Assembly (NCBI GenBank): GCA_014360825.1
Contig: JACIWT010000008.1
Span: 62,001 to 126,000 of the forward strand
DNA: 64,000 nucleotides
Source: Chloroflexota bacterium
Lineage (GTDB): Bacteria > Chloroflexota > Anaerolineae > UBA2200 > JACIWT01
Direction: 5' to 3'
The notes beneath the pieces were generated by a model. That model was not told the origin of the DNA. It ran no database searches and saw only the letters and a list, made by a program, of their open reading frames with translations. Shown here in pieces: positions 3,207-5,894 of this stretch (positions are counted from its first letter, which is position 1; each line of letters begins with the position of its first letter). The position numbers and the translations under genes are program-made.

Positions 3207-3450
3207 GCATTTTTGCCACACCTCTACCAAGAAAGGGGGTGACGTCGAGATGGTTTTGTATCGCAAGACATGAGATCGTGCGGGCACAATGCACGGGATG
3301 CATTGGCCGACCATTCTCGCCGCGCCGGCAGCGTCTATGACCGGCGACGTTACCCCCTGCTGTCTCCTGCTTGGACTGCTGTAGGCTCTGACGTTGCCGG
3401 AGGGCTATGCCGTGTGCGGCCCACAAAATCCGTCAACGAAAGGAGCCAAC
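3207..3450 (+). promoter_or_regulatory. Long structured leader of the selenium operon with a seven-codon uORF
   Basis: The region between the promoter and the first gene is unusually long. It holds a short frame at 3250-3273 (MVLYRKT then TGA) with an AAAGGGGGTGA ribosome site just upstream. After it come a small hairpin (CGTGC 3277-3281 with GCACG 3291-3295, a nine-base loop beginning GGG) and a larger helix (CCGGCGACGT 3341-3350 with ACGTTGCCGG 3391-3400, one G-U pair). Read past the TGA, the frame continues to a TAG at 3382-3384. A regulatory role is inference; I match it to no known riboswitch. Confidence 0.4.
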
Positions 3451-4548
3451 ATGTCTTCTCTTGATCGCCTCTTCACGTCCCGCTGGGGACCTATTCTCAC
3501 GGGCATTGCGGTGGGTGTGCTCGGCCCCGTTTTGGTCAGGCTGGGCAACCCCGGCAACATGGGTATATGCGTCGCTTGTTTCAGCCGCGATATTGCCGGT
3601 GCGCTCGGGCTGCACCGCGCCAGCCTGGTGCAATATATCCGGCCGGAGATCATCGGCTTTGTGCTCGGCTCCCTGGTCGCGGCGCTACTTTTCCACGAAT
3701 TCAAGCCGCGCACCGGCTCCGCGCCCCTGGTGCGATTCCTGCTGGGAATTTTCGCCATGATCGGGGCGATGGTGTTTCTGGGCTGCCCCTGGCGTACCTA
3801 TCTGCGCCTGGCCGGTGGCGACTGGAATGCCATTCCTGGCATCCTCGGCCTGATAGGCGGTATCGGACTGGGGATCGTTTTCCTGCGCATGGGCTACAGC
3901 CTGGGGCGCAATCGCCCTGCTCCTCGGGCTTTGGGCTGGGTGATGCCTCTCCTGATGGTGGGCCTGCTCCTGCTGTTGATTGCGGCCCCCCAGTTCGGGC
4001 GTGATGCCGATGGCAACCCCACCGGCCCGATCTTCTTCTCGACGAAAGGCCCGGGCAGCCAACACGCGCCGTTGCTGGTCGCCCTGGGGGTCGGCTTACT
4101 CCTCGGCTTCCTGGCCCAACGCAGCCGCTTCTGCACCGTCGGCGCCCTGCGCGACCTCATCCTGATGCGCGACACGCACCTGCTCAACGGCATCCTGGCG
4201 CTGATCGCAACCGCTTTCGTCACCAACTTGCTGCTGGGACAGTTCCGGCCAGATTTTGAGAATCAGCCTGTGGCCCACACCAACGCGCTGTGGAACTTCG
4301 GAGGGATGGTCCTGGCAGGGTTGGCCTTTACTCTGGCTGGTGGCTGCCCAGGTCGGCAACTTTTCCTGTCTGGTGAAGGCGACGGCGACGCCGCATTGTT
4401 CTCACTAGGGATGATCGTGGGGGCGGGATTTGCCCACAACTTCAACCTGGCCAGTTCGACGAGCGGGCCGAGCCCCTTCGGCCCAGCAGCAGTGATCGTC
4501 GGTTTGATCATCTGCGTTGCCATCGGGCTGACGATGCGCGAACCGTAG
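3451..4548 (+). CDS. yedE: YedE/YeeE-family membrane transporter, selenium-associated type
   Basis: A protein of about 365 residues with roughly ten hydrophobic segments and the duplicated YeeE/YedE architecture. Diagnostic pieces are NPGNMGICVACFSRD (about residues 33-47), the conserved FLGCPWR, QRSRFCTVGALRD in the second half, and LAGGCPGRQLF. The Cys residues in these motifs are the positions proposed to relay sulfur or selenium species in this transporter family. It is followed by tusA/yedF-like, selD and DUF3343 genes, the set that marks the selenium-metabolism variant. The start at 3451 is preceded by AGGAG; an upstream TTG frame start has no SD. Confidence 0.85.
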   Translation: MSSLDRLFTSRWGPILTGIAVGVLGPVLVRLGNPGNMGICVACFSRDIAGALGLHRASLVQYIRPEIIGFVLGSLVAALLFHEFKPRTGSAPLVRFLLGIFAMIGAMVFLGCPWRTYLRLAGGDWNAIPGILGLIGGIGLGIVFLRMGYSLGRNRPAPRALGWVMPLLMVGLLLLLIAAPQFGRDADGNPTGPIFFSTKGPGSQHAPLLVALGVGLLLGFLAQRSRFCTVGALRDLILMRDTHLLNGILALIATAFVTNLLLGQFRPDFENQPVAHTNALWNFGGMVLAGLAFTLAGGCPGRQLFLSGEGDGDAALFSLGMIVGAGFAHNFNLASSTSGPSPFGPAAVIVGLIICVAIGLTMREP

Positions 4549-4784: not shown

Positions 4785-4844
4785 CGAGGAGTGCGACGCA
4801 CTCCTGCGGGGGTGCGTCGCCCCGACTGGAGAAGGAAGATTGAG

Positions 4845-5894
4845 ATGACGAGAGAAGAGATCCGTCTGACTGCGATGACCACGGCTGCGGGTTGAGCGGC
4901 GAAGAGGGGCCCAGCGGCCCTGGCGCAGGTCCTGCGCCCACTGCAAAACCTCTTTCGCGCCGAGGATTACCCCAACCTGTTGGTAGGGCTCTCCAAAGCC
5001 GATGACGCTGCGGTCTATCGCCTGACGGATGACGTGGCCGTCATTCACACCGTGGATTTCTTCACCCCGGTGGTGGATGACCCGTATCAGTATGGGGCGA
5101 TCGCCGCGGCCAACGCCATGAGCGATGTCTATGCGATGGGCGGCGAGGTGATCCTGGCCCTCAACGTCTGCGCTTTCCCCGCCGACATGGACCCGGCAAT
5201 CATCGCCGAGATCCTGCGCGGCGGGGCGGAGAAAGTGGCCGAGGCTGGCGGGGTACTGGCTGGCGGCCACACTCTGGACGACCCCGAGCCGAAATACGGT
5301 CTGGCGGTGCTGGGCGTGGTTCACCCGGATCGGGTGCTCACCAAGGCGGGGGCCCGGCCCGGCGACGACCTGGTGCTGACCAAGCCTCTGGGAGTGGGCA
5401 TCATCACCACCGCCCTCAAGGGCGGGGTGGCCGACCCTGCCCACGTGCAAAAAGCAGTGGAGAGCATGGCTACCCTCAACCGTCTGGCTGCCCAGGCGAT
5501 GCAAAAGGTGGGCGTCCACGCCGCCACCGACATCACTGGTTTCAGCCTGCTGGGTCACGCCAGCGAGATGGCCGAATTAAGTGCCGTGGGGTTGTGTTTC
5601 TATTTCGGCAAACTCCCCTTCTTGGAAGGCGCCCGCGGCTACGCGGGTAAATGGCTCTTCCCAGGTGGTACTAACCGCAACCGGGATTACTACGGCTGCG
5701 GGGTAACCTTCGCCCCTGAGATCCCGGAGGAGATGCAGATGCTCCTCTTCACCCCAGAGACCAGCGGGGGGCTCCTGATTGCCGTGCCGGCGGAGAAAAC
5801 GCCGGAATTGGAAGCCCTTTTCGCCGCCCTGGGGCGAGCGGTCTGGCGCGTCGGTGAGGTCGTGGAGGGTTCGGGGATTGAGGTTCGGAAATGA
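4845..5894 (+). CDS. selD: Selenide, water dikinase (selenophosphate synthetase) with an in-frame UGA at the catalytic position
   Basis: It makes selenophosphate from selenide and ATP. The frame from ATG 4845 reads IRLTAMTTAAG, then TGA at 4893-4895, then AAKRGPAAL, and stays open to 5894 (349 residues, normal SelD length). In E. coli SelD this place is GAGCGCK, with the catalytic Cys exactly where the TGA falls and the essential Lys three residues on, also kept here. Selenocysteine-containing SelD proteins are known, so readthrough as Sec is the natural reading. Downstream motifs are typical: DDAAVYRL, HTVDFFTPVVDDPY, AANAMSDVYAMGG, LAGGHTL, TDITGFSLLGH, TPETSGGLL. Automated callers would probably start at TTG 4980 and lose the active site. 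Confidence 0.93.
4893..4921 (+). promoter_or_regulatory. UGA (Sec) codon of selD and candidate bacterial SECIS hairpin
   Basis: TGA at 4893-4895. Ten bases further on, GGGCC (4907-4911) pairs with GGCCC (4916-4920) around the loop CAGC, with an extra G-U pair (4906/4921). The distance fits bacterial SECIS elements, which lie inside the coding sequence. The loop does not start with G, so the match to the published consensus is imperfect. Confidence 0.55.

Follow-up and report, generated by a model that had tools for sequence, protein, structure and literature searches.

The selD gene of the analysed window (the whole 64,000-nucleotide stretch of DNA examined here, from a Chloroflexota bacterium) most probably encodes a standard bacterial selenophosphate synthetase carrying selenocysteine (Sec) at catalytic residue 17, a reading to which we assign a probability of about 0.97. 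According to this reading, Sec is inserted through tRNA-Sec, SelA, SelB and a hairpin in the message, and the gene sits within a selenium supply cluster. The gene should therefore be annotated from ATG 4845 with Sec17, and not from TTG 4980. Nothing in it departs from the established bacterial mechanism of Sec decoding, which has been summarised elsewhere (PMC1794560, PMC13188914).

The frame opens with ATG at 4845-4847, continues for 15 further codons to an in-frame TGA at 4893-4895, and stays open from there to the terminal TGA at 5892-5894, giving 349 residues. Its beginning reads MTREEIRLTAMTTAAG-TGA-AAKRGP, and the ATG is preceded by the purine-rich stretch AGAAGGAAG. When the TGA is read through, the protein belongs to family TIGR00476 with 381.7 bits (cut-off 125), covering model positions 1-310 of 311, that is, its full length. 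Under genetic code table 11, the first ATG, GTG or TTG after the in-frame TGA is TTG 4980, and the ORF that starts there (4980-5894) scores 349.3 bits over model positions 39-310. Since read-through raises the score from 349.3 bits, the segment that precedes the TGA genuinely belongs to SelD. The initial annotation, made from the letters alone, had already assigned this leading segment to SelD, had considered the total length normal and had expected an automated call to start at TTG 4980 and lose the active site; segment and length are borne out, and TTG 4980 is indeed the first start available after the TGA.

The same annotation had placed the TGA at the catalytic Cys/Sec of selenophosphate synthetase with the Lys three residues later kept, and had suggested aligning the N-terminus with known Sec-type SelD. 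Alignment bears out both statements, as the TGA coincides with Cys17 in the E. coli protein (PDB 3u0o) and with residue 17 of Aquifex aeolicus SelD (2yye), and the Lys at +3 is retained as Lys20. The homologous codon was compared across 110 SelD loci, comprising the window's own gene and 109 others, which represent both the same class and other phyla. Of these loci, 96 have TGA and 14 have TGC or TGT at that codon, and no other residue occurs at the site (0/110). Because the relatives share the TGA residue or carry Cys in its place, a chance coincidence is excluded, and the conservation of TGA excludes a sequencing error at this codon in practice.

The nearest relatives judged by SelD (L052, L053, L029, L054 and others) all have TGA; those named are Chloroflexota/Anaerolineae metagenome bins, and the SelD proteins fetched from the nearest relatives are about 75% identical to that of the window. 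A SelD tree was computed with the N-terminal columns left out. In it, the smallest clades with good support that include the window's gene (2 and 22 rows) consist entirely of Sec forms, and the Sec/Cys label switches only five times. Among 298 genomes drawn from the class, SelD was found in 250, the Sec form prevails, and nearly all SelD matches listed contain exactly one in-frame TGA; the genus-level genome search comprised this genome alone. Three class relatives (L022, L023 and L024) have a long SelD-containing frame of 743-770 aa with a CxxC-type active site, GLGCACK, which we take to be consistent with known NADH-dehydrogenase-SelD fusions.

Compared with known enzymes, the protein shares with Sec-type SelD (TIGR00476; Aquifex aeolicus, PDB 2yye/2zod) its full-length match, its length, the position of the catalytic residue (GUAAK here) and the conserved Lys, and differs from it in nothing of substance. 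It shares fold family and catalytic position with E. coli SelD, which has Cys17 where Sec17 is predicted here. Thus, selD in this genome is an ordinary Sec-type gene, the usual form in its class, and no surprise. Descriptions of Sec-type SelD go back about two decades, and it ranks among the two most widespread bacterial selenoproteins (PMC1794560), so that the finding stands as a correct annotation and leaves general views unchanged. Of the SelD genes found in 223 reference prokaryotes, 19% were Sec-type, with Sec always at position 17 (PMC4561486).

The machinery needed to decode UGA as Sec is encoded in the same draft assembly (2.89 Mb in 64 contigs, 97.9% complete), which contains SelA, SelB and a tRNA-Sec with anticodon UCA (Table 1). 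SelB shows the GTPase domain, the SelB beta-barrel and the SECIS-binding winged-helix domains 2 and 3 (Pfam SelB-wing_2/3), and SelA is also present in 52 of 60 relatives. The initial annotation had expected selA, selB and selC elsewhere in the genome and regarded UGA as very likely decoded as Sec, naming a lack of selB or tRNA-Sec in a complete genome and a sequencing error between TGA and TGC or TGT as grounds for refuting it. Both genes are present and the TGA recurs in the relatives, so that its expectation is supported on each count. These results settle that the organism decodes Sec and belongs to a class whose SelD is usually of the Sec type. The genome also encodes YqeB, which marks the trait of selenium-dependent molybdenum hydroxylases. 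MnmH, the selenouridine tRNA synthase, was sought in the genome at E ≤ 0.001 and not found, and selenouridine is therefore unsupported as a use of selenophosphate.

Table 1. Location of selD, its associated elements and related genes (coordinates refer to the window unless a contig or locus is named)
Feature	Location	Strand	Evidence and remarks
Putative selenium transporter, YedE family	3394..4548	+	TIGR04112, 494.8 bits over cut-off 200
TusA/SirA-like protein, 73 aa	4563..4784	+	PF01206
selD, predicted Sec-containing selenide, water dikinase, 349 aa, U17	4845..5894	+	ATG start, terminal TGA; TIGR00476
In-frame TGA, predicted Sec17 (= catalytic Cys17 of E. coli SelD)	4893..4895	+	Alignment; 96/110 relatives TGA, 14/110 TGC/TGT
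AAG codon, conserved active-site Lys20, +3 from Sec	4902..4904	+	Alignment
Predicted bacterial SECIS hairpin, GGCGCAG-GUC-CUGCGCC (also split GGCGCA-GGUCC-UGCGCC)	4922..4938	+	bSECIS rules, comparison
DUF3343/Se_S_carrier protein, 75 aa	5891..6118	+	PF11823, 79.1 bits over cut-off 25; ATG overlaps selD stop
SelB	C9:21829-23700		353 bits over cut-off 242
SelA	C9:119271-120605		585 bits
tRNA-Sec, anticodon UCA	C9:16747-16842		About 5 kb from selB
Extra in-frame stops in fdhA	TAG, L132 plus-strand 3877-3879; TAA, 2554-2556	gene on minus	Contig G000:C2

Downstream of the UGA, a hairpin with a 7-bp stem and the loop GUC, the loop lying 33 nt past the UGA, has a folding energy of -11.3 kcal/mol (z -3.45). 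The published rules for bacterial SECIS elements (bSECIS) call for a loop of 3-9 nt, a stem of 4-16 bp, G at one of the two leading loop positions, a distance of 16-37 nt from the UGA and an MFE of at most -7.5 (PMC13188914), and the hairpin agrees with all of them. The initial annotation had proposed folding 4890-4930 against the bacterial SECIS model; a rule-conforming hairpin does exist, but at 4922-4938, so that the proposed stretch cuts through it. Longer single-sequence folds, including 4885-4950, and shorter pieces did no better than shuffled sequences, and the case for a SECIS element consequently rests on comparison.

Over 95 distinct Sec-type sequences, a mean of 5.01 of the 6 helix pairs are formed. 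Resampling of synonymous codons, which controls for protein sequence and not for relatedness, gave 4.61 (sd 0.06) when column-specific and 4.04 (sd 0.09) when pooled, and none of 2000 replicates reached the observed value in either scheme. The helix also covaries: with column 1 as the first base of the TGA, two-sided changes include GC to TA at columns 33-43 (8 sequences) and GC to CG at columns 30-46 (6 sequences). The Sec genes have a mean MFE of -8.4 kcal/mol, versus -2.5 for the 14 Cys-type genes. At a threshold of -6 kcal/mol, the hairpin is missing in 16 of 96 Sec genes and present in 4 of 14 Cys genes, and the relatedness-corrected contrast between hairpin and Sec codon comprises just 4 independent Sec/Cys pairs. 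A nearer hairpin at 4906-4921 (GGGGCC-CAGC-GGCCCU) was rejected as the SECIS element, since its loop does not have G at either of the two leading positions and it is less well conserved across Sec-type relatives. An Rfam search at the hairpin site returned no matching family, with two weak chance matches only.

Like the SECIS element of E. coli fdhF, the predicted selD element is a stem-loop that follows closely on the UGA and carries AGGU in its apex (GCAGGUCUGC in fdhF, GCAGGUCCUGC here). They differ in spacing, the loop starting 18 nt after the UGA in fdhF and 33 nt after it in selD, and in the stem, which is continuous in selD and lacks the bulged U found in that of fdhF. In the fdhA of this genome, GGUCU occurs 18 nt past the UGA, between CC and GG. 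In SelD genes of Rokubacteria bins (L082, L083 and L107), the hairpin is missing in the usual register and a possible one is shifted towards CCAGGAGGTGCTGG, so that this lineage may use a different SECIS register.

Taken together with the established mechanism, these elements suggest how the protein would be made. UGA 4893-4895 is most likely decoded by Sec-tRNA-Sec, which SelA would form on tRNA-Sec(UCA) with selenophosphate, the product of SelD itself. SelB, presumably bound to the 4922-4938 hairpin, would bring this tRNA to the ribosome. The resulting enzyme is predicted to convert selenide and ATP into selenophosphate, which would serve Sec synthesis and probably also the YqeB-linked selenium-dependent molybdenum hydroxylase pathway.

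An ordinary Cys-type SelD whose TGC or TGT was misread as TGA could be imagined in a draft of 64 contigs, the more so as Cys-type genes are real among the relatives. However, such an error would have to coincide with TGA at the same codon in all nearest relatives and with the exclusively Sec clades of 2 and 22 rows, in a genome that has the Sec machinery and in a gene that keeps a SECIS-like hairpin, and we consider it highly improbable. Equally little credit can be given to the TGA as a real stop, whether in a pseudogene or in a gene translated only from TTG 4980 without the active-site loop. An ORF from that TTG does exist, yet the segment preceding the TGA is recognisable as SelD, many genera share the pattern, and a good ATG follows the purine-rich AGAAGGAAG. 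The shortened protein would also lack residue 17 and Lys20, both of which are required for activity in E. coli SelD.

Least probable of all is a genome-wide reading of UGA as another residue, such as Trp, or as Cys by a suppressor, for which nothing specific speaks. TGA is the commonest stop of long ORFs here (53 of 104), the site admits Sec or Cys alone in relatives, and both in-frame TGAs found, in SelD and FdhA, lie at known Sec sites. Insertion of Sec at residue 17 of SelD thus stands as the reading that we prefer by far.

The second of these genes, encoding the formate dehydrogenase alpha subunit, has its TGA within CARL-U-HSSTV, a site that is TGA in most of the best-matching relatives and Cys in others. 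The remainder of FdhA is well conserved (886.6 bits). As a second selenoprotein it is weakened by two further stops in its frame, TAG and TAA. The TAA site is Gln in 29 of 29 relatives compared, and of the relatives alignable at the TAG site (29 compared) a single one lacks Gln there; the Gln codons are CAG or CAA. A changed code is a less likely cause than a very recent loss or an assembly error: of the 104 long ORFs in 204 kb, 51 end in TAG or TAA, which speaks against their being read as Gln, and no further interruption of a conserved frame was seen in the same 204 kb. One could also suppose that fdhA was broken by two recent nonsense changes and that Sec decoding is kept mainly for the SelD that feeds the YqeB-linked pathway. 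If so, SelD would be nearly the only selenoprotein of the organism and would maintain a self-sustaining loop, but we regard this scenario as unlikely.

The neighbourhood of selD is that of a selenium supply cluster. YedE, YedF/SirA-like and DUF3343 proteins are described as SelD neighbours (PMC5322559), and here YedE, a TusA/SirA-like protein, SelD and DUF3343 are encoded in one block, as in those known clusters. In difference to them, no selenocysteine-lyase-like gene was seen between the cluster genes. The true start of yedE is probably further in than the mechanically assigned TTG 3394. The TusA/SirA-like protein matches the N-terminal part of the YedF model TIGR03527 below its cut-off and, unlike true YedF, is without the DsrE half. 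Several relatives likewise have genes for YedE, TusA-like and DUF3343 proteins in the vicinity of selD. The interval 4785-4844, which separates selD from the TusA-like gene, contains two inverted repeats, both short and GC-rich (GGAGTGCGACGCACTCC and GGGGTGCGTCGCCCC), which are possibly a terminator or attenuator, or else an intergenic repeat.
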